Assembly: GCF_001545155.1 (NCBI RefSeq)
Contig: NZ_CP014226.1
Span: 3,392,111 to 3,456,110, forward strand
Length of the DNA: 64,000 nucleotides
Reading direction: 5' to 3'
Source of the DNA: Halomonas chromatireducens
Lineage (GTDB): Bacteria; Pseudomonadota; Gammaproteobacteria; Pseudomonadales; Halomonadaceae
Position 1 is the stretch's first letter. Each line of letters starts with the position of its first letter. The position numbers were made by a program, and so were the translations under genes. Below the pieces are notes generated by a model. The model worked only from the letters and a program-made list of their open reading frames with translations, had not been told where the DNA came from and searched no databases. This document shows positions 33,759-64,000 of this stretch, in pieces.

Positions 33759-33791
33759 GCCCTCCCCAAGCGGCTGACACCCGGGGAGGGC
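33759..33791 (+). terminator. GC-rich hairpin after the RIO1 gene
   Basis: GCCCTCCCC (33759-33767) pairs with GGGGAGGGC (33783-33791). No T-run follows, so it may be a weak terminator or an mRNA-stabilising structure. Confidence 0.55.
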
Positions 33792-33843
33792 TGCTGAAGT
33801 ATCCTGGTCCAGGCAATACGCTTCGCGCAGGTCTTCAGTTAAT

Positions 33844-35815: not shown

Positions 35816-35961
35816 GCCGGTGAATATTTGAATAACGAGCGGTCGCGCATTGTTCCGTTGCCGACGGGAACGACGGCTGCTGCCGTGCCGCAGTCCTTGA
35901 TGGTTGCGAAAAGGCGTGTTTCGGCTGAGTATACAAGGCTTTGTTTCCGCAGGAGCCGACG

Positions 35962-36153: not shown

Positions 36154-36191
36154 GCCCTATACACCATGACCGGATACAGGCAGTTCGTACC

Positions 36192-36425: not shown

Positions 36426-36526
36426 GCAGGGGGGGCGTCGCCTGGGGGAGGGCGGCAGGCAAGCGTTGGTGGCGGTGGCCGTCATAATTGTCGACACTGG
36501 GTTGCAGACAGCCCAAGGAGACAGAC

Positions 36527-37285: not shown

Positions 37286-37414
37286 TCAGGCCTTTACCTG
37301 CTTTCATCACCCTTCTGTCCAGTTCTCCCTTTGTGAGAAGCCGAGCCGGTGACCTTGCAAAGGCTGCTGGGGATTGCCATGGTCAGGGTGACATTCATGA
37401 TCGATGGATCTGTC

Positions 37415-39382: not shown

Positions 39383-39385
39383 CGA

Positions 39386-40222: not shown

Positions 40223-40274
40223 CGGAACTGCCTGCCAGGCCGACGTCAGCTCTGGTTCGTATCAACTGTTCGTA

Positions 40275-41003
40275 TCAGCTGTTCGTTTGAACGTCGGCGT
40301 TATGGAACACGTTCTGAACGTCGTCCAGGTCATTGAGCGTATCGAGCAGCTTCTCGAACATGGCGACGTCGTCGCCTTCGACCGGCGTGGTGGTCTGGGG
40401 CACGAACTGGATCTCGTCGATCTCGAAGTCGAGCTCACCAAAGGCGTCGAGCAGGGCCTGCTTGGCCTTGGCATATTCGGTATGCGGTGCAAAGACGGTG
40501 ATGTGGCCATCCTCGCTTTCGATGTCGGTGACGTCCACGTCGGCTTCCATCAGCGCCTCGAGGGTGGCTTCCTCGTCGTCGCCGCTGAAGGCGAGAATCG
40601 CGCAGTGGTCGAACATGTGGCTGACGGTGCCGGGGGTGCCGAGCTTGCTCTTGGCCTTGTTGAAACAGGCTCGGACGTCACCGAAGGTGCGGTTCGGGTT
40701 GTCGGTCAGGCACTCGACGATGACCATGCAGTTGCCCGGCCCGAAACCCTCATAGCGTGCCGGCGAGAAGTCCTCGCCGCCCACGCCGCTGGCCTTGTCC
40801 AGCGCCTTGTCGATCACGTGCGACGGCACCTGGTCCTTCTTGGCGCGTTCGAGAAGCCCGCGCAGGCTCAGGTTGGCGGAAGGGTCGACGCCCCCGGCCT
40901 TGGCGACCACGTAGATCTCACGCCCGTATTTACTGTACACCTTGGTCTTGGCGGCGGCCGTCTTGGCCATGGATTCCTTGCGGTTCTGAAAGGCCCTGCC
41001 CAT
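40275..41003 (-). CDS. YebC/PmpR-family regulator (YeeN-like)
   Basis: A 242-residue protein, [20 protein letters not shown]..., with the family core [40 protein letters not shown] and [11 protein letters not shown]. The group includes YebC (ribosome rescue at proline stretches, or transcription) and YeeN. The sequence is closer to YeeN because of the early [11 protein letters not shown] spacing. AGGA lies before the ATG. It is convergent with the hydrolase gene. Confidence 0.9.
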
Positions 41004-41159
41004 AACGTTGTCCTGTTGCGTCTGACATGAAGCGGAATTCTACGAAACCGTTCCGGCAGGGAACAGTGTTATTTCTTGGGGAAGCGGGGTGGCATGACGC
41101 GAGTCATGGCTACACTGTCGGGGTGAGTTGCATCCTACTCTGCCTGGAGCCCACCTCTC

Positions 41160-42353
41160 ATGGACCATCATCAGTACCGTCATGCCCTGGCGGCCCACCT
41201 GCAGGCTGCCGAACTGGCCTTCCCCGAAGCCGAGTACGATGCGCGACAGGGGCGGGTCCGCGCCGCGATGGCGGACAGCGAACTGGATGCCCTGCTGGTC
41301 ACCGATCCTGCCGACATCTACTACCTCACCGGATACAACACCTTCGAGGTATCGGTGCATACCTGCCTGGTATTTTCGGGGGATCGCCTGGTGTTGCAGG
41401 TGCCCTCCATCGAGACCGGCCCGGCGGTGGTCACGGCCCGGGTCGACGAGCTGCTGGGCTATCGCTGGGAGGGTATCGAGGAGGTGCTCGAGCCCTTGGC
41501 AGAGACGCTATCGGGCTTTGCGGCCATCGGCCTGGATCCCTTCAGCCCCACCCTGCGCCACGGCATCATCGGTCCCTTGCAGCAGCGCCTGGGGGCCGAG
41601 CGATTTCAGGCCGGGGGTGGTGAGCTGCTGGATCGCATCCGCATCGTCAAGAGTGAGGCGGAGCTGGCCTGTCTGCGCGATAGTGCGCGGATCACCTCGC
41701 GGGGGCTGGCTGCCGCCATCGAGGTCATTGCACCGGGCATGACCGACAACGATGTTGCGGCGGAAGGCGCCCGTGCGCTGCTGGCGGCGGGTAGTGAATT
41801 CATGAGCATGCAGCCCATCGTCACCACCGGGCGGCGTATCAGCGTGATCCACATGAACCACCAGCGTCACCGGATCGAGCCGGATGAGCCGGTATTTCTT
41901 GAGTTCGGTGCTTCTTTCCGTCGTTACACGGCGCCGATGATGCGAACTGCGGTGGCAGGGCGTGCCAGCGGGGAGATGCAGGCCATGCGCGATGTCTGCC
42001 GCGCACTGTTCGAGGCACTGAGCGCGGCCATGCGGCCGGGCAACACCTTCGACGATGCCGCGCGGGCCGCGGAGTCGGTGCTGGCACCCCAGGTTGACCG
42101 GGTGTTTTTCTCGGGTGTCTTCGGCTATGCCGTGGGAGCACAGTTCCCGCCCAGCTGGGTCGAAGGCAGCGGCTATATCGCCCGTGGCCAGCAGCGAAAG
42201 TTCGAGGCAGGCATGGTCTTCCACCTGCCGCTCTGTCTGCGGGTGCCGGGGGAGTGGGGCATCGGTATCAGCGATACCGTTCAGGTGACGCCCACTGGGG
42301 GCGTGCCGATCACCGATAACGATTGGCAGCTCAAGGAGCGTTCGGGGAGCTGA
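41160..42353 (+). CDS. M24-family creatinase-like hydrolase lacking metal ligands
   Basis: A 397-residue protein with the creatinase N-domain (LVTDPADIYYLTGYNTFEVS) and a pita-bread C-domain (RIVKSEAELACLRDSARITS). The five metal ligands of aminopeptidase P-type enzymes are not visible: the first two positions read LEFGASFRRYTAPMMRT, the His region is GYAVGAQFPPSW, and the last Glu is Ser in GIGISDTVQV. This matches creatinase and ectoine hydrolase (DoeA), which work without metal. DoeA would suit a halophile, but no ectoine catabolic genes are adjacent. Substrate unassigned. Confidence 0.8.
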   Translation: MDHHQYRHALAAHLQAAELAFPEAEYDARQGRVRAAMADSELDALLVTDPADIYYLTGYNTFEVSVHTCLVFSGDRLVLQVPSIETGPAVVTARVDELLGYRWEGIEEVLEPLAETLSGFAAIGLDPFSPTLRHGIIGPLQQRLGAERFQAGGGELLDRIRIVKSEAELACLRDSARITSRGLAAAIEVIAPGMTDNDVAAEGARALLAAGSEFMSMQPIVTTGRRISVIHMNHQRHRIEPDEPVFLEFGASFRRYTAPMMRTAVAGRASGEMQAMRDVCRALFEALSAAMRPGNTFDDAARAAESVLAPQVDRVFFSGVFGYAVGAQFPPSWVEGSGYIARGQQRKFEAGMVFHLPLCLRVPGEWGIGISDTVQVTPTGGVPITDNDWQLKERSGS

Positions 42354-42408
42354 GGCAATTGCGTGCAAGGCGAAGGTCCATTCATCTTTCTGACCGGCAG
42401 GCCTGGCC

Positions 42409-42990
42409 ATGGGCATGACGCTGGTCCTGGTCGTGGTGACGACGACGGTGAGCGTGCTGGCCTGGATGTGGCCGCGACTATTCGATGCGCTGATCTATTG
42501 GCCGCCGGGTGTGTCCCGCGGCCAATGGTGGCGACTGCTTGGCCATGGCTTCATCCACGCCGACAGTACGCACTTGCTCTTCAACATGATCACTCTCTAT
42601 TTCTTCGGCACCGTGATGGAGCTGGTACTCACCCCGCACATCGGTTCGGCGGGCTTCATCCTGTTCTATCTCTCCGGACTATTGGTGGCAATCCTGCCGA
42701 CCCATCTGCGCCATCGGCACGACACACGTTTTTACAGCCTGGGGGCGTCGGGGGCGGTATCGGCAATGCTGTTCGCCTATATCCTGCTGCGGCCCTGGTC
42801 GCTGCTGTTCGTCTTCTTCGTGCCGGTGCCGGCGATCGCTTTTGCCGTCCTCTATGTCCTCTATTCGTTTCGCGCCCAGCGGCGCGGTGGCGACAATATC
42901 AATCACAGCGCCCACCTCTGGGGTGGTGGCTGGGGCGTCGCCTTCATGCTCCTCCTGATGGGGCTCACGGAGATGGAGAGCGTGGCGTGA
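42409..42990 (+). CDS. Rhomboid-family intramembrane serine protease
   Basis: A 193-residue membrane protein with six hydrophobic segments. HGFIHADSTHLLFNM carries the conserved HxxxN loop, the nucleophile Ser is in YSLGASGAVSAML, and the catalytic His in NHSAHLWGGGWG. It is the compact bacterial form that cuts membrane proteins near the periplasmic face. Two ATGs (42409, 42415) are possible. It begins 55 bases after the M24 gene. Confidence 0.9.
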   Translation: MGMTLVLVVVTTTVSVLAWMWPRLFDALIYWPPGVSRGQWWRLLGHGFIHADSTHLLFNMITLYFFGTVMELVLTPHIGSAGFILFYLSGLLVAILPTHLRHRHDTRFYSLGASGAVSAMLFAYILLRPWSLLFVFFVPVPAIAFAVLYVLYSFRAQRRGGDNINHSAHLWGGGWGVAFMLLLMGLTEMESVA

Positions 42991-43156
42991 ACCGCCTTGT
43001 CGGGCGTTAGTCGGTCTTGCCAATCTCCGGCACTGTTCGCCACTGTCCAATCGAGTGATCTGGCTATACTGGGCAGTAAGGCTAGGGAGAGTTCTTTCCT
43101 GTGCCCGGTTGCGGCGCCAGAAGGTGCTGCTCACGTTTCAGCCCCAGGAGGGTGTC

Positions 43157-43378
43157 ATGACACTGACTGTTACCGCCGATTACAGGGACTTGATGAAGGC
43201 CACCAATGCTTACGACGAGCTGGTATCCGAGGGCTATCCGCGCGAGAAGCTCTATTTCGACAGGGAGACGCACCAGGTCAAGGTCATCGTGCCCGATACC
43301 ACCCGGCCTGAAGCGGAGGAGATCCTGAGGCGGCATGAGCCTGTTGAGCTCTGGGCGCGCCCCTTTGAAGAGGGTTAG
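43157..43378 (+). CDS. Hypothetical 73-residue protein
   Basis: MTLTVTADYRDLMKATNAYD..., alpha/beta composition with a strand (HQVKVIVPDT) and a final acidic helix. CAGGAGGG precedes the ATG. The general shape resembles small ferredoxin-like or heavy-metal-associated folds, but no metal motif is present. Its stop is inside a strong hairpin. Confidence 0.6.
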   Translation: MTLTVTADYRDLMKATNAYDELVSEGYPREKLYFDRETHQVKVIVPDTTRPEAEEILRRHEPVELWARPFEEG

Positions 43379-43412
43379 GAGCCTGCCGAACGGCCAAATC
43401 CGACAGGCTCCT
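43377..43412. terminator. Bidirectional hairpin terminator
   Basis: AGGAGCCTG (43377-43385) pairs with CAGGCTCCT (43404-43412). It lies between two convergent genes and overlaps the stop codon of the left one. Confidence 0.75.
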
Positions 43413-43430
43413 GGTACCGCGCTTGGTCGG

Positions 43431-44066
43431 TCAGGCGGGATGATGTTTCGCTACGGATGACATGGCCCGATCGTCCAGCTCGTTGGCGCGCCGAAACGCT
43501 TCGCGGTCACTGACCCGCGCCCAGTAGTCGACGAAGGCGGGGCATGACTCCAGGCTGCCGAACTGCAGGCCCCAGCCGATATGTGAGCCGAGGTAGACAT
43601 CGGCTGCCGAGAAGTGTGCGCCGGCGATGTATTCACTGACGCTGACCGCCTGTTCCAACGTTTCTAGCACCGCTTCGATGCTGCCGTACCCGACCCGAGC
43701 CTGCTGTTCGGTATTGGGCTCCATGCCGAGGTCCCGATCGGTCGTGGCAGCTTCCAGCGGCCCGGCCGCGAAGAATAGCCAACGATAATAGGCTCCACGT
43801 GCGGTAAGCGGTGGGGCGAGGTCGGCCTCGGGGAAGGCATCCGCTAGGTAGGCGCAGATAGCCGCGCATTCGGTCACGATAGTCGTGCCGTGGCGAATCG
43901 CCGGTACCTTGCCCATCGGGTTGATGGCCAGGTAGTCGGGCGACTTCATGGCGGGGCCGTAGTCGATGAGTTCAGTGCGATAGGGCGCGCCGACTTCTTC
44001 CAGTATCCAGCGAGCGATACGACCGCGGGACATGGGGTTGGTATAGAGTACGAGGGAATCATGCAT
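43431..44066 (-). CDS. Glutathione S-transferase
   Basis: A 211-residue GST. The N-terminal thioredoxin-like domain reads LVLYTNPMSRGRIARWILEE, with the motif NPMGKVPAI and TECAAICAYLADAF for glutathione binding; the helical C-domain ends with SAADVYLGSHIGWGL. The catalytic residue is probably the Ser of PMSRGR. GGAGAGTT precedes the ATG at 44066. It is 112 bases from soxR on the same strand (downstream of it), and could be part of the redox response. Confidence 0.92.
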   Translation of the reverse strand: MHDSLVLYTNPMSRGRIARWILEEVGAPYRTELIDYGPAMKSPDYLAINPMGKVPAIRHGTTIVTECAAICAYLADAFPEADLAPPLTARGAYYRWLFFAAGPLEAATTDRDLGMEPNTEQQARVGYGSIEAVLETLEQAVSVSEYIAGAHFSAADVYLGSHIGWGLQFGSLESCPAFVDYWARVSDREAFRRANELDDRAMSSVAKHHPA

Positions 44067-44178
44067 GACGGAACTCTCCATGTATTGCCCATGAAGATAG
44101 CAGGTCCACGGAGCAGTGTTATCGGACTGTTAAACGGTACCGGAACGGGATGAAAGCCAACCGCTGATCAATCAAGGA

Positions 44179-44628
44179 TCAATCGGGGTCCAGCAGGCGG
44201 GGGCCGGTTCCTTCATCGGCCAGTTCGTCCTGCGGATTACGCAGCGGGCAGTCGTTCATCGAAAGGCAACCACAGCCGATACAGTGATCGAGCTGGTCAC
44301 GCAGCCGGGTCAGCCGGGCAATACGATCGTCGAGTGCATGTCGCCAGCGTGCGGAAAGGCGCTGCCAGTCGGCGGCGGTGGGGGCCCGGGATGCGGGAAG
44401 CGTCTCGAAGGCCTGGCGTATCTCGGCCAACGAGATACCGGTGCGCTGAGCGACCTTGATGATGGCCACCCGCCGAAGCACATCGCGGCTGAATCGCCGT
44501 TGGTTGCCGGCGTTGCGGCGACTGCTGATCAGGCCCTTGCCCTCATAGAAGTGGATGGCCGAGACCGCCAGACCGCTGCGCTCAGCCACCTCACCAACGC
44601 TGAGCTCCCGGTGCAGGTGTGACTGCAT
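44179..44628 (-). CDS. soxR: Redox-sensitive MerR-family activator SoxR
   Basis: About 149 residues from ATG 44628, preceded by GGAGA; ATG 44646 is also in frame. The MerR helix-turn-helix is [20 protein letters not shown], followed by the dimerisation helix and the 2Fe-2S cysteine cluster [12 protein letters not shown], exactly the SoxR pattern CxxCxCxxxxxC. SoxR responds to redox-cycling drugs or superoxide. The box it should bind lies upstream of the divergent ABC exporter at 44975-44992. No soxS is present, as is usual outside enterics. Confidence 0.96.
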
Positions 44629-44970
44629 TGCTGTATCTCCGGTCATTGCCTGGCTGCTGTTGTAACGATTGTATTGACGATAGCTTTAACGACTAATTGT
44701 TCTTGCGATTGTATTTGAAATGGTTATGGCGACTGGTTCGGCCACTGGAATGATCATTGCTCAAGCGGCCGTATCCTTCATTGTTTTAACGTGCGGGGCT
44801 GAGGTTGGCAAGGAACACTCCAGACGTTGCAACAAGTGCTTGTGAAGCAAAGTATTCTTGGTATCAGGTTTCGTGATGGATTCCATGACGATTATTGATT
44901 TCCCATGTGGCGGGGCGGCCTCTACTTTGAATTTTCTTCAAACGGCTGTGTTGTTTCCAAATTCTTTATC
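44629..44970. other. soxR upstream interval
   Basis: About 340 gene-free bases. Near 44660-44735 there are imperfect copies of CGATTGTATT and TTATGGCGAC-like strings. It presumably holds the soxR promoter. No coding frame with a ribosome-binding site was noticed. Confidence 0.5.
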
Positions 44971-45001
44971 TTGACCTCTACTTAGCTTGAGGTTTTAACC
45001 T
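44971..45001 (+). promoter_or_regulatory. SoxR box within a long-spacer promoter
   Basis: CCTCTACTTAGCTTGAGG (44975-44992) matches the SoxR consensus CCTCAAGTTAACTTGAGG at 15 of 18 positions. A -35 TTGACC (44971-44976) and -10-like TAACCT (44996-45001) are separated by 19 bases, the overlong spacing typical of MerR-type activated promoters. It drives the ABC exporter at 45053. Confidence 0.85.
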
Positions 45002-45052
45002 GCAGGCTACACCCGGGTTGAGCTCAGCGCTCGGCCCGCTGATTTTCCGCTG

Positions 45053-46957
45053 ATGGATAATGTCATGTTCCGTTTCTTTGAAACCCTGGTGAACCCTTAC
45101 CCGGCGGGTAAGCCCGAGACGCCTCCGAGGGGGCTCCTGCCCTTCATCCTGCATTTTTCGCGGCCAGTGCTGCCGTTGCTGATCCTGATGTCGCTGCTCA
45201 CGGCACTGGTGTCGGCCGCCGAGGTGCTCTTTTTCAGCTATCTCGGCGAGCTGGTGGATTGGCTGTCGGGTGCCGAGCGTGAGGGGTTCTTCGCCGAACA
45301 CGGTTGGCGCCTGGGAGCCATGGCGGCAATAGTGGTGATCGGGTTGCCGCTGCTGGTATTGATGCAGTCCCTGCTGACCCATCAGGCGATCTTCGGCAAC
45401 TATCCGATGATCGGTCGCTGGCTTGCGCATCGCCACATGCTCGGTCAAAGCATGGCGTTCTACCAGGATGAGTTTGCCGGGCGCGTCTCGCAAAAGGTGA
45501 TGCAGACGGCGCTCGCCATCCGCGAGACGGTAATGAAGCTGTTGGGCCTGCTGGTCTATGTAGTCGTCTACTTCGGCGGCGCGATGCTGCTCATGGGCAT
45601 TGCCGAGCCCTGGCTGATGCTGCCCCTGGTGGCCTGGCTGGCCGGATACATCGCGATCATGTGGATATTCGTGCCGAGGCTGCGCCGGGTCTCCATGGAG
45701 CAGGCCGATGCCCGCGCCCGCATGACCGGCCGTATCGTCGACAGCTACAGCAATATCCAGACCATCAAGCTGTTCGCTGATACCCGGCGGGAGCAGGCCT
45801 ATGCCCGCGATGCCATGGAAGGCTTCATGGTCACGGTGCATCGCCAGATGCGCCTGGCAACGCTGCTGTCGGTGTGCCTGACGCTGCTCAACTCGCTGTT
45901 GCTGACGAGCGTCGTGGCCATGGCCATCGGTGCCTGGTACTTCCAGGCCATTTCACTGGGTGCCATCGCCGTGGCCATCGCCCTGGTGATGCGCATCCGC
46001 TTCATGTCCGACTGGATCCTGTGGGAGGTGGCGGGACTGTTCGAGAATATCGGTACGGTGCAGGACGGCATCAACACCATCGCCCGGGAGCCGGCGGTGA
46101 AGGACCTCCCCGGTGCCGCCACCCTTACCGTGCCGCGCGGGGAGATCCACTTCGATGCGCTGCAGTTCGGCTATGAGCGTCCCGATGGTGAAGGCATTCG
46201 GGTCTTTGATGGCATGAGCCTGACCATCGCTCCCGGTGAGCGAGTTGGCGTCATTGGCCGCTCCGGGGCGGGCAAGTCGACCCTGGCCAATCTGCTGCTT
46301 CGCTTCTACGACCTGGAGGGCGGACGCATCGTGATCGACGGTCAAAACATCGCCGAAGTCACCCAGGAGTCGCTGCGACGCCAGATCGGGATGGTCACCC
46401 AGGACACCTCGCTGCTGCACCGCTCGGTGCGAGACAACATTCGTTACGGAAGCCCCCATGCCACAGAGGCGGAGGTCGAGGAGGCGGTGCGTCGTGCCCA
46501 TGCCGATAGCTTCATCAACGACCTGGTGGATCTCAAGGGGCGTCGCGGCCTGGACGCACATGTGGGAGAGCGCGGCGTCAAGCTTTCCGGTGGCCAACGC
46601 CAGCGTATCGCCATCGCCCGAGTGCTGCTCAAGAATGCGCCGATCCTGGTGCTCGATGAAGCCACGTCGGCGCTCGACTCAGAGGTCGAAGCGGCGATCC
46701 AGGAGCAGCTCTACACCCTGATGGAGGGCAAGACGGTGATCGCTATTGCACACCGGCTGTCGACCATCGCCATGCTCGATCGACTCGTGGTAATCGACGA
46801 GGGTCGAATCGTCGAGAGTGGGAGTCATCAGGAACTGCTGGCCCGCGATGGGCTCTACGCCGCGCTCTGGCGTCGCCAGTCCGGCGGTTTTCTGGGGCTG
46901 GACATTGACGCTGAGGCAGAGCAACACCACGGCAGGCCGCTGGGTGTGGAAACCTGA
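45053..46957 (+). CDS. ABC exporter (fused permease and ATPase)
   Basis: A 634-residue half-transporter. About six N-terminal helices (residues 35-330) are followed by an ATPase domain with GVIGRSGAGKSTLANLLLRF (Walker A), MVTQDTSLLHRSV (Q loop), VKLSGGQRQRIAIAR (signature) and ILVLDEATSALDSE (Walker B). Exporters of this MsbA/multidrug type work as dimers. The SoxR box just upstream suggests induction by redox-active toxins such as phenazines or quinones. A RidA-like gene follows after 26 bases. ATG 45065 is an alternative start. Confidence 0.93.
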   Translation: MDNVMFRFFETLVNPYPAGKPETPPRGLLPFILHFSRPVLPLLILMSLLTALVSAAEVLFFSYLGELVDWLSGAEREGFFAEHGWRLGAMAAIVVIGLPLLVLMQSLLTHQAIFGNYPMIGRWLAHRHMLGQSMAFYQDEFAGRVSQKVMQTALAIRETVMKLLGLLVYVVVYFGGAMLLMGIAEPWLMLPLVAWLAGYIAIMWIFVPRLRRVSMEQADARARMTGRIVDSYSNIQTIKLFADTRREQAYARDAMEGFMVTVHRQMRLATLLSVCLTLLNSLLLTSVVAMAIGAWYFQAISLGAIAVAIALVMRIRFMSDWILWEVAGLFENIGTVQDGINTIAREPAVKDLPGAATLTVPRGEIHFDALQFGYERPDGEGIRVFDGMSLTIAPGERVGVIGRSGAGKSTLANLLLRFYDLEGGRIVIDGQNIAEVTQESLRRQIGMVTQDTSLLHRSVRDNIRYGSPHATEAEVEEAVRRAHADSFINDLVDLKGRRGLDAHVGERGVKLSGGQRQRIAIARVLLKNAPILVLDEATSALDSEVEAAIQEQLYTLMEGKTVIAIAHRLSTIAMLDRLVVIDEGRIVESGSHQELLARDGLYAALWRRQSGGFLGLDIDAEAEQHHGRPLGVET

Positions 46958-52342: not shown

Positions 52343-53038
52343 TCAATCCCCGATTGCCCACTTCACCGCTTCCTCGGCGTGAATGGCTGCGGTGTCGTAG
52401 AGCGGCACCGCGGTATGGCTCTGCTGCACCAGCAGGGCGATTTCGGTACAGCCGAGGATTACCGCCTCGGCGCCCTTCTCGCGTAGTGACTCGATGATCT
52501 CCAGGTAGCGCTGCCGCGACGCTTCCTTTACCTGACCCAGGCACAGCTCGTGAAAGATCACCTCGTGAACCTGGTCACGCTGACCCTCGTCGGGCACCAG
52601 CACCTCGATGCCGAAGCCCTCAGTGATGCGCCCCTTGTAGAAGTCATGCTCCATGGTGAAGCGGGTGCCGAGCAGGCCGACGCGGCTAACGCCGTCGGTG
52701 GCCAGGCGATGTGCCGTAGCGTCGGCGATGTGCAGCAGCGGAATCGAGACCGCTTTGGCGACCTGCGGTGCGACCTTGTGCATGGTGTTGGTGCCGATCA
52801 GCAGGAAATCCGCACCGCCGGCCTCTACGCTGCGGGCAGCCTGGCTGAGGATCTCGGCGGTGGCGTCCCAGTCGTCGGCGTGCTGTAGCCGCTCGATCTC
52901 GGCGAAGTCGACGCTGTACAGGCACAGCTTGGCTGAGTGCAGCCCGCCCAGGGCAGCTCTAACGCCCTCGTTGAGCGCCCGGTAATAGCTGGCGGTGGAT
53001 TCCCAGCTCATGCCGCCGAGCAGGCCGATGGTCTTCAT
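52343..53038 (-). CDS. Aspartate/glutamate racemase family protein (YgeA-like)
   Basis: About 231 residues from ATG 53038 (MKTIGLLGGMSWESTASYYR); longer starts at 53044 and 53056 are in frame. In place of the first catalytic Cys is Thr (LIGTNTMH); the second is kept (ILGCTEIALL). This Thr/Cys pair is that of E. coli YgeA-type broad-specificity or L-Asp/Glu-specific racemases. It is convergent with the YjfB gene. Confidence 0.88.
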   Translation of the reverse strand: MKTIGLLGGMSWESTASYYRALNEGVRAALGGLHSAKLCLYSVDFAEIERLQHADDWDATAEILSQAARSVEAGGADFLLIGTNTMHKVAPQVAKAVSIPLLHIADATAHRLATDGVSRVGLLGTRFTMEHDFYKGRITEGFGIEVLVPDEGQRDQVHEVIFHELCLGQVKEASRQRYLEIIESLREKGAEAVILGCTEIALLVQQSHTAVPLYDTAAIHAEEAVKWAIGD

Positions 53039-53110
53039 GGTCATGCGCTCCCTCATGTTGTCGTTTATTCCATAACTGTCATACGGCGCTGCCTATGTCT
53101 CGTATTCGTC

Positions 53111-53213
53111 GTGGCGGCGGTTCCAGACGTAGGCTACCGCTTTACCGACCTCACCGCCGCCTGCCAGGACGACTGGCGCGCCTATACCGAGCACGACTTC
53201 GTGCGCAGCCTCG
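53111..53213 (+). pseudogene. Thiaminase II (TenA) N-terminal fragment
   Basis: The + frame encodes YRFTDLTAACQDDWRAYTEH then DFVRSLA, the N-terminal segment of TenA-family aminopyrimidine aminohydrolases. A GTG at 53111 could be the start. After residue 34 the natural GTLP continuation is lost and the sequence passes into an inverted piece of the RND pump gene at 53212. The remaining roughly 190 residues of TenA are missing. It is one partner of a recombination joint. Confidence 0.7.
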
Positions 53214-55392
53214 CCCCACGCGGCTTCGGCAACATCGAGAATTTCAACAACGGCTTCGCCATCATCAGCATGTCCCCCTGGGGCGAGCGTCGCGATGCCT
53301 GGTCGATCAGTCTCGGGTTGTCCTCGCGGATATGATCCATCAGGGTGTCGCGCCACTCGGCAAGCTCTTCGTAGGTGCCGCCACCCAGCACGAACTCCAC
53401 CGGCTTGCTGATGCGCTGGCCAAAGCCCTGGCGCATCACCGGGAAGGCCTGCACCCCGGGCAGGTCGGCCAGCTCCCGGCGAACCTCGTCCATGATCGAC
53501 CAGGCATCGCGACGCTCGCCCCAGGGGGACATGCTGATGATGGCGAAGCCGTTGTTGAAATTCTCGATGTTGCCGAAGCCGCGTGGGGCGCGCACCACCA
53601 CTCGCTCGAGCTCGCCGCTCTCAAGCATGGGATCGAGCCGGGTCTCGATCTCATCCATGTAATCCATGATGTAGTCGAAGGTGGCCCCCTCCGGGCCGTT
53701 GACCAGGATGATGAAGCTGCCGCGATCCTCCTGCGGGGTGTATTCGCTGGGCAGCAGGTCGGCCAGCCAGACGGTGGCGGCAATCAGCGCCACGAATACC
53801 GCCAGCACCGCGGCACGCGCCCTGAGTATCCAGATCAGCAGGGTACGATAGATGCGCTGGGTGAATTCCAGCAACCACTGGACCGCCAGTGCGATGCGGC
53901 CCTCGTGCATCGAAGGCTTGAGAATCTTCGAGGCCATCATCGGGGTCAGGGAGAGCGCCAGCACGCTGGATATGGCCACGGCGGCGGCCATGGTCAAGGC
54001 GAACTCGGTGAACAGGCGACCGACGTTGCCCTGCAGGAAACCCAGCGGCACGAACACGGCGATCAGCACCAGCGTGGTGGCAATGACCGCAAAGGCGATC
54101 TGGCGGGTGCCGCGGAAGGCCGCCACCAGAGGGGTCTCGCCGTAGTCGTGCATGCGGCGGTGAATGTTCTCCAGCACGACGATGGCGTCATCGACGATAA
54201 GGCCGATGGCCAGCACCAGGGCGAGCAGGGGCAGCAGGTTGATCGAGAAGCCCATCAGGGCCAGGGCCATGAAGGCGCCGACCATTGCCACCGGCACCGT
54301 TACCGCAGGTATCAGGGTGGTACGCACGTTGCCCAGGAACAGGAAGATCACCACGACGACCAGACCCATGGCGATGAAGAGCGTGATCACCACCTGCTGG
54401 ATGGCGCCGGAAACGAAGACCGAGGCATCATAGTTGAGGGAGAGCGACATGCCCTGGGGCAGGCTGTTCTGCACCCGCGCCAGCTCCGCCTGCACGCCCT
54501 CGGAGACCTCCAGCACGTTGGCGGTGGACTGTTTCATGATTCCCAGGCCCACCATCGGCACGCCGTTGGCGCGGAAGATCGAGCGATCATCCACCGAGCC
54601 GATTTCCACTCTCGCCACATCGCCCAGGCGAACCAGATAGCCATCGGGGCTCTGGGTCAGCGCCAGGCGCTCGAAATCATCGGGCTGGTTGAAGGTGCGC
54701 GGCAGGCGAACCATGAACTGCCGGTCGCGGGACTCGATCGACCCGGCCGGCAGTTCCACGTTCTCGGCACGCAGGGCGCTTTCCACATCGCCCACGGTGA
54801 GGTTGCGGGCCGCCAGCGCATTGCGGTCGAGCCACACCCGCATGGCATACTCCCGTCCGCCCCCCACGCGTACCCTTGCCACGCCGGGCTGTACCGAGAA
54901 GCCGTCCACCAGGTAGCGGTCGGCATAGTCGGTGAGCTCGGGAATCGTGTAGTCGTCGCCGGAGAGGGAGAGCCACAGCACCACCTCCTCGCTGGAGTCG
55001 GCCTTCTGCACTTCCGGCGGGTCGGCTTCGTCGGGCAGGTTGCGCAGGGCGCCGGAGATGCGGTCGCGTACGTCGTTGGCGGCAGCATCGATGTCCATGT
55101 CCAGGCGGAACTCGATGTTGATCCGTGAACGGCCATCCTCGCTGGAGGAGGTGATCAACTGGATGCCCTCGACCCCGGCGATGCGGTCTTCCAGCAGCTG
55201 GGTGATCCGGGTTTCGACCACGTTGGCCGAGGCGCCGGGGTAGCGGGTGTCGATGCTGACCACCGGCGGGTCGATGGAGGGGTACTCCTGCAGCGGCAGG
55301 CGCTGCATGGCCAGCAGGCCGAAGGCGACGATCAGCAGGGCCAGGACGGTGGCCATCACCGGGCGCTGGACGGATAGGTCCGAGAGCCGCAT
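53182..55392 (-). pseudogene. RND efflux pump, truncated at about residue 694 of ~1030
   Basis: Inner-membrane RND transporter beginning MRLSDLSVQRPVMATVLALL. Early periplasmic loops, helices including IVDDAIVVLENIHRRM (residue ~400, proton-relay Asp pair region) and the second periplasmic part are normal up to GTYEELAEWRDTLMDHIRED NPRL. At 53310 the gene runs into an inverted copy of its own residues near 600-633, then antisense TenA sequence to a stop at 53182. About 335 residues, with the last five helices, are missing, so no working pump is expected. It overlaps the adaptor gene by one base (TGATG). Confidence 0.85.
53212..53590. repeat. 98-bp perfect inverted repeat
   Basis: 53212-53309 is identical to the reverse complement of 53493-53590 at all 98 positions, with a 183-base spacer. 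The right arm is the natural RND coding sequence (GFGNIENFNNGFAIISMSPW); the left arm is the displaced copy that closes off the gene. Confidence 0.95.
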
Positions 55393-56516
55393 CAGGAGCT
55401 TTCCTCACTGCGGTTCCGCTCGAGTATCTTGCGGATCGTGGCATCGTCGTCGGCGATGCCCAGCAGCCTCACGTTGTCCCCCTCCCGGGCACGCTGCAAT
55501 CCATGGTTGACCACCAGTTCACCCTCGGCCAGGCCTTCGAGTATCTCGACCTGACCGGTACGGCGCTCTCCCACGGTGACGCGGCGGCGCTCGAGTCGGT
55601 TGCCGTCGGCTTCATCAATCACCATCACATATTGTCGGTCACCGCTGGGAACGAGTACCGATTCGGGTGCCACTACGGCTTGTCGGGGCCTGCGCTGGAC
55701 CACGACCTCCATCAGCATGCCCGGGCGCAGGCGAAGCTCGGGATTGGCCAGCTCGGCGCGAACGCTGACGCTGCGGCTGACCGGGTCGACCCGCGAGCCG
55801 ACGCTGGCTACCTCGCCCTCGAAGACATCGTCGGGAAAGGCCGCGCTGTGCGCGGTCAGTGGCAGGCCAGGCTCGAGAATCGCCAGAAAGACCTCGGGCA
55901 CGTTGAAGTCGAGCTTCATCACGTCGGTCTTGTCCAGGGTCACTAGCTGGGTACCGGGGGTGACCAGGCTGCCCACGCTGATGTTGCGAAAGCCCACCCG
56001 GCCGTCGAAGGGGGCGCGCAGCTGGTAGTTCGTCAGGCGCGCCTCCAGTCCCTGGATCTCGGCTTCCACCTGGCGCAGTCGTGCCTGGCTGTCCTCGACG
56101 TCGGCGCGGGGCGCCATGTTGCGTTCCTGCAGCTGGGTGAGCCGGTTGACCGCACTGCGTCGCTCGTCGCGCTGGGCCTGGGCGGCTCGAAGCTGTGCCT
56201 GCTGCTCGCCATCCTCCAGGCGGATCAGCAACTGGCCGGCTTCCACCAGGTCACCGTCACGAAAATTGAGCTCGGCGACGATCTCGGTAACGGTGGCAGA
56301 CAGGGTGACGCTCTCGTCGGCGCGCAGGGTGCCCAGCGCCTCGAGGGGGTCGGACCAGGGCTCCAGCGTCACGCGGGAGGCAATCACCGCGGTGCGCTCC
56401 TGAGCGGCAAGCGGCAGGCTCAGCAAAAGCAGAGCGAGTGTTAGCATCAACAACGATGACAGCAACAACACTGTGTTGTGCCACGTGGGGGGCTTGAGGC
56501 GTGAAATCGTTTTCAT
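55392..56516 (-). CDS. RND periplasmic adaptor (membrane fusion protein)
   Basis: A 374-residue HlyD/AcrA-type adaptor. A signal or anchor (LLLSSLLMLTLALLLLSLPL) is followed by a lipoyl/barrel-sandwich half (DGDLVEAGQLLIRLEDGEQQ), an alpha-hairpin (QAQRDERRSAVNRLTQLQER), the second lipoyl half (LRAPFDGRVGFRNISVGSLV) and a membrane-proximal barrel. It sits first in the operon with the RND pump, whose start overlaps its stop. It has no outer-membrane factor nearby. A palindrome and a pentanucleotide array lie upstream. Confidence 0.92.
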   Translation of the reverse strand: MKTISRLKPPTWHNTVLLLSSLLMLTLALLLLSLPLAAQERTAVIASRVTLEPWSDPLEALGTLRADESVTLSATVTEIVAELNFRDGDLVEAGQLLIRLEDGEQQAQLRAAQAQRDERRSAVNRLTQLQERNMAPRADVEDSQARLRQVEAEIQGLEARLTNYQLRAPFDGRVGFRNISVGSLVTPGTQLVTLDKTDVMKLDFNVPEVFLAILEPGLPLTAHSAAFPDDVFEGEVASVGSRVDPVSRSVSVRAELANPELRLRPGMLMEVVVQRRPRQAVVAPESVLVPSGDRQYVMVIDEADGNRLERRRVTVGERRTGQVEILEGLAEGELVVNHGLQRAREGDNVRLLGIADDDATIRKILERNRSEESS

Positions 56517-57732: not shown

Positions 57733-58087
57733 TATTGAACCTCTTTTCTTGATTGTGATGTTTCTTCGGTTGGCTTGTTGACCCTAGCACAGCTTGGCAC
57801 AGCTGTTTTTTCTGAATCGACCCTGAAGGCATGGTCATCCCGTCACCCAGCGGTGCGCAATTGGCTTCGTTTCTGCGCCCAAGTTCCAGCCTTCAGCCGG
57901 CACAGTGCTGCTTTCGGCACACTCCACCAAAATTCTTCAAGCCGCTGCAAGATAGTCCTAGTCTCCTGCAAGATACTTCAAGCATTCACACATGGTAACG
58001 ACAATGCTGACTTCCGAGAGCCGGGGCAAGAAGCGCCGGTTTCCGACAACAGCAAGCTTGAAAAAACAAACGTACGGAGAAGCAATC
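57733..58087. other. Gene-free interval upstream of flp
   Basis: About 355 bases between two divergent transcripts. It should contain the promoter of the Tad operon and that of the TctC-type gene. The + frame upstream of flp is open from 57992 but has no homology. Nothing else is supported. Confidence 0.5.
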
Positions 58088-58306
58088 ATGAGCAAGCTGA
58101 TGAAGGGTATCGAGCGTTTCTGGCGCGAAGAAGAGGGCACCGAGGTGGTGGAGTGGGCCTTGGTGGGTGGACTAATTGTCGCCGTTGGTGCAGCAATTTT
58201 TGTGGTAATTGGAGAGCACACAGGCGATTTGCTTGCAACTGTAAGAGATACTTTGGGTACAGCGGTAACAGAAGCAGGAGCTGAAGGAGCAGCTGGCGAA
58301 AACTGA
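58088..58306 (+). CDS. flp: Flp/Fap-type pilin (type IVb prepilin)
   Basis: A 72-residue prepilin. A short leader (MSKLMKGIERFWREEEG) ends at the Gly of the cleavage site, and the mature chain begins TEVVEWALVGGLIVAVGAAI: Glu at +5 and the hydrophobic helix are as in Flp pilins, with Trp in place of the usual Tyr at +6. It is the main subunit of the Tad pilus. GGAG lies nine bases upstream. A hairpin follows before the next gene, which would leave this gene with the highest mRNA level. Confidence 0.93.
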   Translation: MSKLMKGIERFWREEEGTEVVEWALVGGLIVAVGAAIFVVIGEHTGDLLATVRDTLGTAVTEAGAEGAAGEN

Positions 58307-58334
58307 GACGGATAATGGGTGATAACACGGAAAT

Positions 58335-58359
58335 TAGGGCGTCATAAGTTGACGCCCTA
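58335..58359 (+). terminator. Attenuator hairpin between flp and tadV
   Basis: TAGGGCGTC and GACGCCCTA form a 9-bp stem around ATAAGTT; a T-poor AT stretch follows. It probably stops part of the transcripts, keeping pilin expression above the assembly genes (inference). Confidence 0.7.
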
Positions 58360-58388
58360 TTAGATAAATTATTCAGGAATTACTGGCT

Positions 58389-58934
58389 ATGCGTCATGAG
58401 CTCCTGCTGATTCCCTGCTTGTTGCTGGCCTGGATCGCTGCAGGCTGGGATCTGCGTATACGGCGCATCCCCAATCGACTTGTTCTGGCCGGGACCGTCA
58501 TGGGCCTGCTGTTGCAGGGAGTGCTGGTAGGAACCGGCGGTTTCCTGGCCGCCATCCTTGGTTTGCTGGTGGGGATGGCGATCCTGATGCCGGGCTATCT
58601 GATGGGCTTTACCGGGGCGGGTGATGCCAAGCTGATGGCGGCGGTGGGTACCTTTCTGGGACCGGTGGGTGTATTGCAGGCGGGCCTCATGAGTATTGTT
58701 GTTGGAGGAATTGTTGGAATGGTCTTCGCCACCTCGGCGCTTTTCAGAAGACAGTCGGTGTCGCCCTGGAGTCGCTATGGACTGATGGCAAAGACGCTGC
58801 TCTATACCGGAAGACCACTGTATATCGCCCCGAAAGAAGGTGAGGTAATGGGCTCAAAGTTTCCCTTTGCAGTGTCGATCGCGATCGGTGCCACGGGCTG
58901 GATGATCTGGCAATGGCCGCTGGCATTTGGATAG
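58389..58934 (+). CDS. tadV: Prepilin peptidase TadV/CpaA
   Basis: A 181-residue membrane aspartyl protease (A24 family). The two catalytic Asp are visible in AAGWDLRIRRIPNRL and GFTGAGDAKLMAAVG. It lacks the N-terminal methylase domain of PilD, as is normal for TadV. It processes Flp and the TadE/F pseudopilins in the inner membrane. Second gene of the locus. Confidence 0.93.
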   Translation: MRHELLLIPCLLLAWIAAGWDLRIRRIPNRLVLAGTVMGLLLQGVLVGTGGFLAAILGLLVGMAILMPGYLMGFTGAGDAKLMAAVGTFLGPVGVLQAGLMSIVVGGIVGMVFATSALFRRQSVSPWSRYGLMAKTLLYTGRPLYIAPKEGEVMGSKFPFAVSIAIGATGWMIWQWPLAFG

Positions 58935-59084
58935 GCCTTTCGCGGAATTATTTAGCGAAACTATTTGAAACTATTTAAAGGGTTCTTAAAATTATTAAAA
59001 AAATCATCAAGAAAATTAGTGAAATTTTCCGATTTTCGGGCGTTTTTTTCAAGTTTTGTAACGAAATAGTAAGCGAGGTGTGCC
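58935..59084. other. AT-rich 150-base interval in the Tad locus
   Basis: Many A/T-runs (ATTATTAAAAAAATCATC and similar), in sharp contrast to the GC-rich coding flanks. No gene or clear terminator is seen. It may hold an internal promoter for the ATPase gene or a binding site for a nucleoid protein. Confidence 0.6.
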
Positions 59085-60434
59085 ATGCCTGTCGAAGCCA
59101 CCGACTCCCATTCAGCCGGCCCTGGCCAGCGGGCAGCTACCTTGGCCACGCCGCGCCCAGGCACGGTGGCTGAAACCGGGCTTTCGGTGCTCTACCTGGG
59201 CGACCTGCTGGTCAAGCAGCTCTTCGAGCAGGGCATGCTCGACCTGCACCAGCTTTGCCGCGAGAGCGCGCTGGCCGGCAGCGTGGTGGAGGAGGTATGC
59301 CGGTTTCTGCGCGATGGGGGGCGGGTAGAGGTGCGCGGCCAGGGCGAGGGCGGTGCGCTGCGCTTCGGGCTGACCGACCGTGGCCGCGCCTCGGCGCTGG
59401 AAGCGCTTAACCGCGACGGCTACAGCGGCAAGGCGCCGGTTACCCTGGCGCACTACCAGCAGCGGGTCGAGGCCCAGGCGCTCAGTGACGTGGCGATTCG
59501 GCGCAACACGGTCACGGAGGCTTTCGCCGATACGGTGATCGACCCTGCGCTGCTCGACCAGCTGGGGCCGGGGCTGCACTCCGGCCGGGCCATGTTCATC
59601 CATGGCGAGGCGGGTACCGGCAAGAGCTATATCGCCCGGCGCCTGACACGGCTGCTGTCCGGGGAGGTACTGATTCCCCATGCCATCCAGGTCGGGGGCA
59701 AGGCGGTGCGCTGCTTCGACCCGGCCGTGCATCAGCCGGTTGAGGTTGCCGAGCAGAACGCCGCGCTCTCGGCGCTCTACCTGGAGCGCGGCCATGACCC
59801 GCGCTACGTGCGCTGCCGGCGGCCCTGCGTGGTCACCGGCGGCGAGCTGACCATGGAGCGGCTCGAGGTCCAGTACGATATGGCGACCCATATTCACCAG
59901 GCGCCGATCCAACTGCTGGCCAACAACGGCATGCTGGTGATCGACGACCTGGGTCGCCAGCGCATGTCGCCCACCGAGCTGTTCAATCGCTGGATCGTGC
60001 CCTTGGAAGAGCGCCGCGATTTCCTGGCCCTCTCCAACGGTTACCACTTCAGCGTGCCCTTCGATGTGGCCCTGGTGTTTTCCACCAACCTCGACCCGCT
60101 CTCACTGGCCGATGCCGCCTTTCTTCGCCGCATCGGCTACAAGATTCGCTTCTCACCCCTGGCACCGGAGGCCTACCGGGCCATCTGGGCCCAGCAGTGC
60201 CAGGCGCAGGGGCTGGCGTTCGAGGAGGCGCTGGTGAATTTCGTTATCGACGAACTGCATGCCCGCCACGGGGTGCCGCTGCTGGCCTGCCATCCCCGCG
60301 ACCTGTTGAGCCTGGCGCTGGACCAGTTGAGCTATCGGGGAGCAACAACCCCTGACCGCGAGACCCTGAACTGGGCCTGGCAAACCTACTTCGGCGATTT
60401 CACCGACGGTGACGCCGCCGTGCATGGGAGGTAA
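59085..60434 (+). CDS. AAA+ ATPase embedded in the Tad locus, no named Tad role
   Basis: A 449-residue protein. An N-terminal winged-helix-like domain (LYLGDLLVKQLFEQGMLDLH, then FGLTDRGRASALEALNRDGY; residues about 30-120) is followed by an AAA+ domain: FIHGEAGTGKSYIARRL (Walker A, residue ~175), GMLVIDDLGRQ (Walker B), FSTNLDPLSL (sensor 1) and AAFLRRIGYKIRF (Arg finger). It is neither TadA (secretion ATPase) nor TadZ. It is 5 bases upstream of cpaB on the same strand, so it is co-transcribed. It might regulate assembly or gene expression. No function is known to me. Confidence 0.75.
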   Translation: MPVEATDSHSAGPGQRAATLATPRPGTVAETGLSVLYLGDLLVKQLFEQGMLDLHQLCRESALAGSVVEEVCRFLRDGGRVEVRGQGEGGALRFGLTDRGRASALEALNRDGYSGKAPVTLAHYQQRVEAQALSDVAIRRNTVTEAFADTVIDPALLDQLGPGLHSGRAMFIHGEAGTGKSYIARRLTRLLSGEVLIPHAIQVGGKAVRCFDPAVHQPVEVAEQNAALSALYLERGHDPRYVRCRRPCVVTGGELTMERLEVQYDMATHIHQAPIQLLANNGMLVIDDLGRQRMSPTELFNRWIVPLEERRDFLALSNGYHFSVPFDVALVFSTNLDPLSLADAAFLRRIGYKIRFSPLAPEAYRAIWAQQCQAQGLAFEEALVNFVIDELHARHGVPLLACHPRDLLSLALDQLSYRGATTPDRETLNWAWQTYFGDFTDGDAAVHGR

Positions 60435-60439
60435 GGATC

Positions 60440-61264
60440 ATGAAACGCAAAGGTATCTTCGCGATGTTCGCGATTTCACTATTCATGGCCCTGAGCGCCG
60501 CCCTGGTGGCCATGAGCTGGTTGCAGCAGCAGGGGGGGGAGCGAGACGCCTTGGCCGAGACGAGCCAGGTGGTGGTGGCGGCAATGCAGATTCCCTTTGG
60601 TACCACGGTGCAGGCGTCCGACCTCAAGGTGATGGAGTTGCCTCCCGAGTCGGTGCCGCCGGGGAGCTTCAATGACCTCGACAGCGTTGTTGGGCGTGTC
60701 AGCAACCAGGTGATCTTTTCCGGCGAGATTCTCCACGAAGGGCGGGTGGCCGAGCACCTAGGCGGCAGTGCCCTGGCGGCGCTGCTGGACCACGGCAAGC
60801 GCGCCATGAGCGTACGGGTGGACGATGTGGTGGGCGTAGCGGGCTTCCTACTGCCCGGCAACCGGGTGGACGTGGTTTCCTCCCAGCGCAACAACGGCAA
60901 CCGCAACAGCGTCGCGTCGGAAACCATCCTGCGCAACATCAAGGTGCTGGCGGTGGACCAGATCGCCTCCCAGGAGCGTGATGGCCCGGTGATCGTGCGT
61001 GCGGTCACCCTCGAGGTGGACCCGCGCCAGGCCGAGACCCTGGTCCAGGCCACCCAGGAGGGCAAGGTACAGCTCACCCTGCGCAATCCCCTGGATCAGG
61101 AGGACGAGAATGACGTGATGACGGCCCAGCGCTCGGTGCTGAACCTGCCGGAAATCGAGCCGCGGCAACAAGCCAGGCCGGCGCCTGCACCCGCGGCACC
61201 GGTACAGCGTCAGGTCCATGTGATTCGCGGCACCCAGACCAGCACCGTCAATGTACGCAACTGA
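60440..61264 (+). CDS. cpaB: Flp pilus assembly protein CpaB/RcpC
   Basis: A 274-residue protein with an N-terminal anchor (GIFAMFAISLFMALSAALVA) and a periplasmic SAF domain (VVVAAMQIPFGTTVQASDLK), then RAMSVRVDDVVGVAGFLLPG NRVDVV. It ends in a Pro/Ala-rich tail. CpaB works with the secretin in passing the pilus through the envelope. TAAGGA precedes the ATG; five bases after the ATPase gene. Confidence 0.93.
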   Translation: MKRKGIFAMFAISLFMALSAALVAMSWLQQQGGERDALAETSQVVVAAMQIPFGTTVQASDLKVMELPPESVPPGSFNDLDSVVGRVSNQVIFSGEILHEGRVAEHLGGSALAALLDHGKRAMSVRVDDVVGVAGFLLPGNRVDVVSSQRNNGNRNSVASETILRNIKVLAVDQIASQERDGPVIVRAVTLEVDPRQAETLVQATQEGKVQLTLRNPLDQEDENDVMTAQRSVLNLPEIEPRQQARPAPAPAAPVQRQVHVIRGTQTSTVNVRN

Positions 61265-61305
61265 CAAAAGAAAAAACAGGATCCGGCAAGGGCAAGCAAC
61301 ACTTT

Positions 61306-61344
61306 GAAAGCAAGTAACGAAAGCAGCTAACGAAAGCAGGTAAC
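61306..61344. repeat. Three 13-bp tandem repeats before the secretin gene
   Basis: GAAAGCAAGTAAC, GAAAGCAGCTAAC and GAAAGCAGGTAAC at 61306-61318, 61319-61331 and 61332-61344. They lie in the cpaB-cpaC leader just upstream of the SD site. Confidence 0.85.
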
Positions 61345-61364
61345 GCGGGGCAAGGGGAATCGAG

Positions 61365-62996
61365 ATGACCAGACAAGGCGAACAGTGGACACGGCGTGAC
61401 GGGTGGGCTGCCCGCAGATGCATGAGCTGCAGGAGGACGAGCTGCAGATGGTTGAGCGGGATGGTAGTGCTGGCACTGCTACTCGCGGTGAGCTGGGCCG
61501 GGTCGGCAGCGGCCCAGGACCGCGGCACGCCGCGCAACGTCTCCATGCCCATCGAGGGGCGCTCGGTCGCGGTGGCGGTGGCCATCAACAAGGGCCAGGT
61601 TCTGGAGTTTCCTCGGGCGGTGCGGGTGGTATCGGTGGGCAACCCCGAAATCGCCGACATCGTGGTAATGGGCTCGCGCCAGCTCTATGTTCTGGGAAAG
61701 TCCACCGGTACCACCAACGTGGTGCTGTGGGATCAGGGAGAGCAGGTCGAGGGTGCGCTCAATGTCACGGTGACCCACGACCTGGAAACGCTCAAGAGTA
61801 GCCTGCACCAGCTGCTGCCCGGCGAGAACATCCAGGTGCGCTCCGCCCAGGATGGCATCGTGCTGAGCGGACAGCTCTCCAGCGCCGAGCGGCTGGAAAC
61901 TGCCCTGCGCCTGGCCAGCCGCTTCGGCGGCGAGGATGCGGTGCTCAACCTGATGCAGGTGGGAGGCGCCCAGCAGGTAATGCTCGACGTCAAGGTGGCC
62001 GAGGTCTCCCGCTCCCTGGTCAAGCGCCTGGAGGCCAACTTCAACGTCTTCAACGTCGGCTCTTCGGCATTCCGCGCCGGCGCGGTCAGTGGTGGGGCCA
62101 GCTTCCCCGATGCGGTATTCAGCGACTTCGGTGGCGATGGTCGCTTTTCGGCGCTGCCATTTGCCATGGGGCAAACACCTATCGGACCGGCGGTCACCGA
62201 GTTCGCACCGGCCACCGCCACCATCGCCGATACCGGGATCTTCGCTAGCTACCAGCGTGGCGACTACCTGCTCAACCTGGTGCTGGACGCCGCCAGCCGT
62301 GAAGGCGTGGCCAAGATTCTCGCCGAGCCCAACCTGACCACACTGACCGGCCAGCCGGCCCAGTTCCTGGCCGGTGGCGAGTTTCCCATTCCCGTGCCCC
62401 AGGGAAACGGCCAGGTGGCCATTGAGCACAAGGAGTTCGGGGTGGGGCTGGGGTTCCTGCCCACGGTGCTGGATTCCGGCACCATCAACCTCCAGGTGAA
62501 CGTCGAGGTCTCCGATCTGGTGCCGGTCAACAGCCTGCAGGTGGGGGTCGGCAGCGGGGTGAGCACCCAGTTCTTCGTGCCTGCGCTGGCCAAGCGTAGT
62601 GCCAGTTCCACGGTGGAGCTCGCCACCGGCCAGACGATCGCCATCGCCGGCATGCTCAACGAGAACCTGCGCGAGAACGTCTCCAAGATGCCCGGCCTTG
62701 GTGATCTTCCGGTGTTGGGGGTGCTGTTCAGAAGCCAGGAATTCATCAAGGAGCAGACCGAGCTAGTGATCTTCGTCACCCCCCGGCTGGCGCGCTCCTT
62801 TGCTCCGGAGCAGGTGCGCCTGCCCACCGGCTCCTTCGTGCCACCCAGCGACCTGGAGTTCTACCTGCTGGGCAGCTTTCGGTCCCTGGAGGAAGGTGGC
62901 GACAACCCGCGACAGCGGCCGAGCAGCTTCGACCTGGAGCTGATGTCCAGCCGCCCCGATGGCGGCACCGAAGGCCGCTTCGGTCATGATCTCTGA
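61365..62996 (+). CDS. cpaC: Tad secretin CpaC/RcpA
   Basis: A 543-residue outer-membrane secretin. A long leader (signal segment MVVLALLLAVSWAGSAAAQ) is followed by the N-terminal BON/pilus domain (INKGQVLEFPRAVRVVSVGN, then LYVLGKSTGTTNVVLWD) and the secretin domain (ILAEPNLTTLTGQPAQFLAG, GEFPIPVPQ, then TIAIAGMLNENLRENVSKMP and TELVIFVTPRLARS). It forms the channel for the Flp pilus. AAGGGG lies eight bases before the ATG. Confidence 0.93.
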   Translation: MTRQGEQWTRRDGWAARRCMSCRRTSCRWLSGMVVLALLLAVSWAGSAAAQDRGTPRNVSMPIEGRSVAVAVAINKGQVLEFPRAVRVVSVGNPEIADIVVMGSRQLYVLGKSTGTTNVVLWDQGEQVEGALNVTVTHDLETLKSSLHQLLPGENIQVRSAQDGIVLSGQLSSAERLETALRLASRFGGEDAVLNLMQVGGAQQVMLDVKVAEVSRSLVKRLEANFNVFNVGSSAFRAGAVSGGASFPDAVFSDFGGDGRFSALPFAMGQTPIGPAVTEFAPATATIADTGIFASYQRGDYLLNLVLDAASREGVAKILAEPNLTTLTGQPAQFLAGGEFPIPVPQGNGQVAIEHKEFGVGLGFLPTVLDSGTINLQVNVEVSDLVPVNSLQVGVGSGVSTQFFVPALAKRSASSTVELATGQTIAIAGMLNENLRENVSKMPGLGDLPVLGVLFRSQEFIKEQTELVIFVTPRLARSFAPEQVRLPTGSFVPPSDLEFYLLGSFRSLEEGGDNPRQRPSSFDLELMSSRPDGGTEGRFGHDL

Positions 62997-63036
62997 CCTT
63001 TATCGCCTTGGCGACTTATCAACAGGGGGCGCGTCC

Positions 63037-63354
63037 ATGTTTCCTTCACAACGATCCAGTGCAGGCAGGCTTGATACCACTCACCGTGCTCTGTCGGCCC
63101 GGCGGTTCCTCTGGGGGCGCCGATGGCTAGCCTTGGGGTTCCTGCTCTTTGCCCCGCTTCTGGCGGGCTGCATGGCCCCCCAGCCGGGAGCCGACCTGCC
63201 GCCCTATGGCGAGAGCGTGCAGCATACCAAGGCGATGCAGACCTATGAGCCCGGCGATTCGGTGCCGCCGCTACACGGTGCCAAGGCGGCAGAGGCCATG
63301 CGCCACTATCGCCAGGCACCTGGCGGCAGCCAGGCCCCGAGCTCACTGCCCTGA
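63037..63354 (+). CDS. Small Tad-locus lipoprotein
   Basis: A 105-residue protein with a basic N-terminus (about 25 residues), a hydrophobic signal and the lipobox LLAGC, then a short polar domain (MAPQPGADLPPYGESVQHTK). Its place between secretin and TadZ genes suggests a pilotin or secretin helper like CpaD/RcpB, but the sequence is much shorter and not recognisably homologous. AGGGGG lies seven bases before ATG 63037. Confidence 0.7.
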   Translation: MFPSQRSSAGRLDTTHRALSARRFLWGRRWLALGFLLFAPLLAGCMAPQPGADLPPYGESVQHTKAMQTYEPGDSVPPLHGAKAAEAMRHYRQAPGGSQAPSSLP

Positions 63355-63420
63355 GCGGCCCACCCACCGACAGCAGGACACACGGCAACCAGGGACTTTC
63401 ATTGACAAGCAGGTGACGCA

Positions 63421-64000
63421 ATGCGTAAACGGCTCGAGATATTGCTGGCGGGAAGAACCCGGGATGAACTGGGTGCTCTGGAGTCGCTGCTGAGCAGCCA
63501 GGGCGATATCCAGGTCACCTCTCGTCTGATGGTCAACGGTAACGTCGACCCTCTGGAAGGGGTGGCACCCCTTCCCGATGCCCTGGTGCTGCTGGTGGGC
63601 ACCCACTGGGAAGCGGAGCTGATGGCCCTGTGCGAGCGACCGGCGGCGGAGCGCCCACCCCTGCTGGTGGTGGGGCCCAAGGGAAACGTGGAGCTGATTC
63701 GCCTGGCCATGCGCGCCGGAGCGCGTGATTTCTTTTCTCCACCCATCGACGATGCCGAGATCTTCCACTTCCTGCGCGAGCTGGCCCGGAACCGGCGCGA
63801 CGCCCCGAGCCATGCCGCACGGTTAACGGCGGTAATCAATGCCAAGGGGGGCTCCGGGGCCAGCCTGGTGGCCGCCAACCTTGCCCACTGCCTGGCACGG
63901 CAGGGGCGCGATACCGTGCTGGTGGATCTCGACGTGCAGTTCGGTTCCTTGCCGCTCTACTTCAATGTGACCCCGGACCATGGCCTGGTGCGGGCGCTGG
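63421..64000 (+). CDS. cpaE: CpaE/TadZ pilus localisation protein (partial, runs off right edge)
   Basis: The first 193 residues. The N-terminal receiver-like domain (LEILLAGRTRDELGALESLL, residues 1-125) is followed by a ParA/MinD-type ATPase start: TAVINAKGGSGASLVAANLA is an atypical Walker A in which the second Lys of KGGxGKT is Ala, as seen in TadZ proteins, then TVLVDLDVQFG. TadZ positions the Tad machine at the pole. AGGTGACG precedes the ATG. The gene is open at the window end. Confidence 0.9.
   Translation, partial: MRKRLEILLAGRTRDELGALESLLSSQGDIQVTSRLMVNGNVDPLEGVAPLPDALVLLVGTHWEAELMALCERPAAERPPLLVVGPKGNVELIRLAMRAGARDFFSPPIDDAEIFHFLRELARNRRDAPSHAARLTAVINAKGGSGASLVAANLAHCLARQGRDTVLVDLDVQFGSLPLYFNVTPDHGLVRAL

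Follow-up and report, generated by a model that had tools for sequence, protein, structure and literature searches.

Gene content and structure of the joint

The window analysed here is a 64-kb stretch of the Halomonas chromatireducens genome assembly (G000; 3,973,651 bases in one contig, listed as 99.99% complete). Between positions 53133 and 53304 it contains a joint that couples two pieces of unrelated origin. To the left lies a minus-strand gene for an amino-acid (aspartate/glutamate) racemase (52343-53056; TIGR00035, 242.6 bits, cut-off 93.1). To the right, also on the minus strand, are the N-terminal part of an RND efflux permease (53304-55392) and the membrane-fusion (periplasmic adaptor) protein of the pump's operon (55392-56516; HlyD_D23, 98.3 bits). 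The assignment of the pump as an RND permease is supported by a match to Pfam ACR_tran (PF00873) at 653.8 bits against a cut-off of 28, covering profile positions 2-703. The open reading frame itself (53182-55392, minus strand) tracks this profile to residue 696 and then reads falsely into filler sequence; because the match ends there, at profile position 703 of 1021, about one third of the pump is absent at this place.

Two fillers lie between the racemase side and the pump. The first is an 82-bp segment (53132-53213, plus strand) and the second (53212-53309, plus strand) is a 98-bp inverted copy of RND DNA at 53493-53590. An earlier reading made from the sequence alone had described a perfect inverted repeat here, and this was borne out: the arms at 53212-53309 and 53493-53590 are 98 nt long, 100% complementary and separated by a spacer of 183 nt. 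A perfect 98-mer inverted repeat is not chance. The same reading had proposed that a TenA fragment was joined to the reverse copy within a shared CGCCCC. DNA of tenA is indeed present, but its extent is corrected to 53132-53213, an exact copy of the start of tenA at G000:2698665-2698746. The proposed string is not common to both sources because the tenA source continues GGGCC, leaving only CG (2 bp) at that boundary. Comparison with the sources gives GG as the string common to the racemase side and tenA, and CGATCA as that common to the inverted RND copy and the RND gene. The racemase side is native to about 53133, being collinear that far with the related genomes G009 and G008, and also with contig C34 of the relative G005. 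No N is present at the joint or anywhere in the 64-kb window, and this counts against reading the structure as a misjoin.

Location of the missing gene parts

When the joint was used to search the assembly, a single match appeared outside the window, where the 72 bp at 53304-53375 are identical to 1267931-1268002. The RND frame resumes there on the minus strand and runs to 1266861 (L004 431-1537). Searched separately from the window part, this piece matches ACR_tran at 331.4 bits (cut-off 28) over profile positions 698-1020. The sequence-only reading had taken the pump to have lost its C-terminus and had raised the matter of where in the genome the missing part might lie. The C-terminus is absent from the window locus, but the part described as lost is present at G000:1266861-1267967, at 1.267 Mb and with the 72-bp overlap. 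On its other side the C-terminal piece, of which the 72-bp stretch forms the end, stops at a single N (L004:1573 = G000:1268003). Another frame lies beyond that N, which we take from its sequence to be bioF-like. In the living cell the pump gene is very likely intact, and reads would be expected to carry it onward past the joint.

The sequence that continues the racemase side in relatives is found at G000:2296130-2296805 (L061 11282-11957), a piece also ending at an N. The overlap between this piece and the window is short, about 24 bp including two mismatches, and this counts against a misjoin. The tenA gene at 2.699 Mb (L094 2163-2828, from G000:2698662 on) is itself cut after about 137 codons, its frame continuing into unrelated sequence, while the C-terminal part of the TenA profile (positions 112-209) is matched at 627930-628229 (L008 1404-1800, G000:627.8-628.2 kb). 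Like the pump, tenA is thus divided between two distant places with overlapping ends, a point in favour of misjoining; the weakness of the overlap (55 bp at 89%) counts against it.

Comparison with related genomes

Sequence to the left of the joint matches G005 contig C34, and that to the right, including the permease and adaptor genes, matches G005 contig C45. A single continuous stretch of C45 is spread over three separate places in the H. chromatireducens assembly, at 847 kb (L090), 1.266 Mb (L005) and in the window (3.445 Mb), and these three overlap identically by 112 and 72 bp. In the complete chromosome of G007 the pump lies at 1514869 and the racemase at 2355280, about 0.84 Mb apart. 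Pump loci were also compared among the best 80 of 100 relatives, each locus reaching at most 4 kb either side of the match. An intact RND gene in relatives, another point raised by the earlier reading, was found throughout, the pump continuing unbroken and in frame at 80 of 80 named loci. At every one of these loci, fetched with the pump protein, the C-terminal part comes after the N-terminal part in the same frame and no more than 60 bases from its expected place, and the racemase occurs at none of the 80 pump loci within those 4 kb. The two sides of the joint are therefore not adjacent in relatives (G005, G007 and 0/80 pump loci), and their true neighbours lie elsewhere in the assembly with overlapping ends (1.267 Mb and 2.296 Mb).

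Elsewhere in the window, positions 26000-45900 are collinear with C34 wherever matched. The joint is the sole false one seen in those stretches of 26000-63999 that match G005; the stretches with no G005 match include most of 57811-63999. Beyond the C45-matching part lies a small frame (57992-58306) that resembles a Flp-type pilin.

Recurrence across the assembly

Twenty evenly spaced 15-kb stretches of the assembly were sampled for undetermined bases, together with an equal amount of G007. The 300 kb of H. chromatireducens sequence contained 10 Ns, in 5 of the 20 stretches, against none in 300 kb of G007. These sampled single Ns are located at L057 14255; L058 5799 and 13319; L060 4573 and 13058; L061 4970, 9233 and 11958; and L069 12845 and 14404. 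The 120 bases on each side of all 10 Ns were searched against the assembly and against G005, with 40 candidates scored per genome per flank search, so that weak copies could escape. A second copy within the assembly (68 bp or longer, identity no lower than 96%) was obtained for 18 of the 20 flanks. The two flanks with no second copy, left of L061:11958 (the racemase neighbour) and right of L069:14404, count against misjoining. In G005 the two flanks fell on different contigs at 8 of the 10 Ns and only one flank was found at the other 2; at none did they adjoin. Five random points served as a control: none of their 10 flanks had a second copy, the best off-site match being 31 bp at 90%, and in G005 four points were unbroken and one was not found.

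Discontinuity in G005 was also seen at joints lacking an N, near 847106 (C12 to C45) and 540914 (C12 to C5), which correspond to about L090 2107 and L091 1915 respectively. One of these two joints cuts the bioF-like gene, whose parts share an identical 89-bp overlap with 1.268 Mb. L005 has three further single Ns, at 8264, 10003 and 19923, of which the pair closest to the pump piece was traced. Single Ns join pieces that are non-adjoining in G005, and near-identical copies of most flanks occur at other places in the assembly. A 119-bp direct repeat at L050 6043-6161 and 8782-8900 (99% identity, 2.7 kb apart) falls in the length class of the duplicate contig ends.

Scanning for exact 25-mer inverted matches no more than 5 kb apart revealed no further spacered inverted repeat in the 300-kb sample of the assembly; the G007 control yielded two, both short (32 and 25 bp). 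The fold-back in the window is consequently atypical of the false joints here. The window joint is one of a class of false joints, though the only fold-back among them.

Origin of the joint

The structure is best read as an assembly misjoin and not a chromosomal event, a reading to which we assign a probability of roughly 0.96 on the basis of the sequence comparisons. An assembler or a gap-filling step would have joined two contigs that are not neighbours, one carrying the racemase and the other the RND pump. They would have met through short chimeric tails, the 82 bp of tenA and the 98 bp of folded-back RND sequence, with overlaps of 2, 2 and 6 bp, and their true neighbours would have been placed elsewhere in the single-contig chromosome. 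At the sampled places at least, contigs are strung in an order absent from relatives, frequently with a single N at the boundary. What is demonstrated is where the patchwork comes from, where the true neighbours lie and overlap briefly at their ends, and that the pattern recurs at other sampled places. The tails would have been made by chimeric reads or by gap filling, and any step from the false joint to an exact cause is one that we infer.

One specific cause of such a joint would be chimeras formed during whole-genome (multiple displacement) amplification. In one study of this method, inverted joints with short complementarity were the commonest, 406 chimeras (85%) being inverted with complementarity of at most 21 bp (PMC1855051). 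With its 98-bp arms and 183-bp spacer, the fold-back in the window resembles a chimera of this sort. Short tails originating elsewhere were seen at several contig ends. In addition to the two fillers in the window (82 and 98 bp), tails of 90 bp (L005:8265-8354, 99% to 3.297 Mb) and 50 bp (L005:10004-10053, 98% to 2.949 Mb) were found, as were tails of 68 and 74 bp to the right of two Ns. Among the tails for which both source and body could be placed on G005, a small set of five, the window fold-back alone is local. Judged by position, the remaining four derive from different contigs or from a distance of about 240 kb, a point against amplification. Amplification is a possible cause that these data do not single out, and we consider it rather unlikely.

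A recent chromosomal rearrangement could also be envisaged, in which the pump was cut short and its C-terminal part displaced by microhomology-mediated template switching with templated insertions. The strings of 2, 2 and 6 bp common at the joints would fit such an event, as would the 100% identity of the arms. Yet the missing C-terminal part at 1.267 Mb ends in 72 bp that duplicate the window sequence exactly and abut an N, the relatives' locus has a third piece at 847 kb whose end is likewise duplicated, over 112 bp, and the pattern recurs at other sampled Ns and is absent at random points. A single loss or move would be expected without duplicate ends at gaps, whereas the observed ends are duplicated over 72 and 112 bp and one stops at an N. 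A real rearrangement is disfavoured because it would have to leave identical duplicate ends far apart, one at an N, in an assembly where this pattern is recurrent, and we regard it as extremely improbable. The earlier proposal that one copying event with template switching truncated both the RND and tenA genes was not upheld, since the joint is pieced together from the racemase side, tenA, inverted RND and RND sequence, and its tenA piece is an extra copy of DNA present elsewhere. Its view that the structure was either very recent or an artefact holds for the second branch, supported by the missing parts elsewhere, the end overlaps, the Ns and the recurrence, but not for a real recent event. 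It is just as improbable that the strain truly carries a recent fold-back in the pump and that the 1.267 Mb piece derives from an unrearranged subpopulation. The 2.18-Mb distance to the missing part had pointed to a large inversion with two breakpoints, a reading rejected because an N terminates the partner place and the locus has a third piece at 847 kb. An assembler overlap of fixed length (72 = k-1) was likewise rejected; other overlaps measure 55, 89, 112, 119 and 127 bp.

The apparent fold-back, which truncates the pump gene and fuses it to a piece of a vitamin enzyme, is almost certainly an assembly error, with no new biology at this spot. Its significance is mainly as a warning that a one-contig genome listed as 99.99% complete contains false joints. 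Other broken genes, fusions and fold-backs in this assembly should therefore first be examined for Ns and for contig ends present in duplicate. A search of the literature for misassemblies involving inverted repeats found nothing on this genome.

Comparison with known systems

Template-switch rearrangements with templated insertions are characterised by short common strings and inserted copies, and in both features the window joint resembles them. Such rearrangements leave unexplained the duplicate ends beside Ns and the recurrence across the assembly. The chimeras of multiple displacement amplification (PMC1855051) are likewise similar in that the window joint is inverted and has a short common string, and dissimilar in that the other placeable tails here are not local. 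False joins between contigs with chimeric or low-quality ends resemble the present case in their short fillers from elsewhere, duplicate contig ends, Ns at joints and synteny broken with respect to relatives. The window joint differs from them in lacking an N and in having a local inverted copy as one of its fillers.
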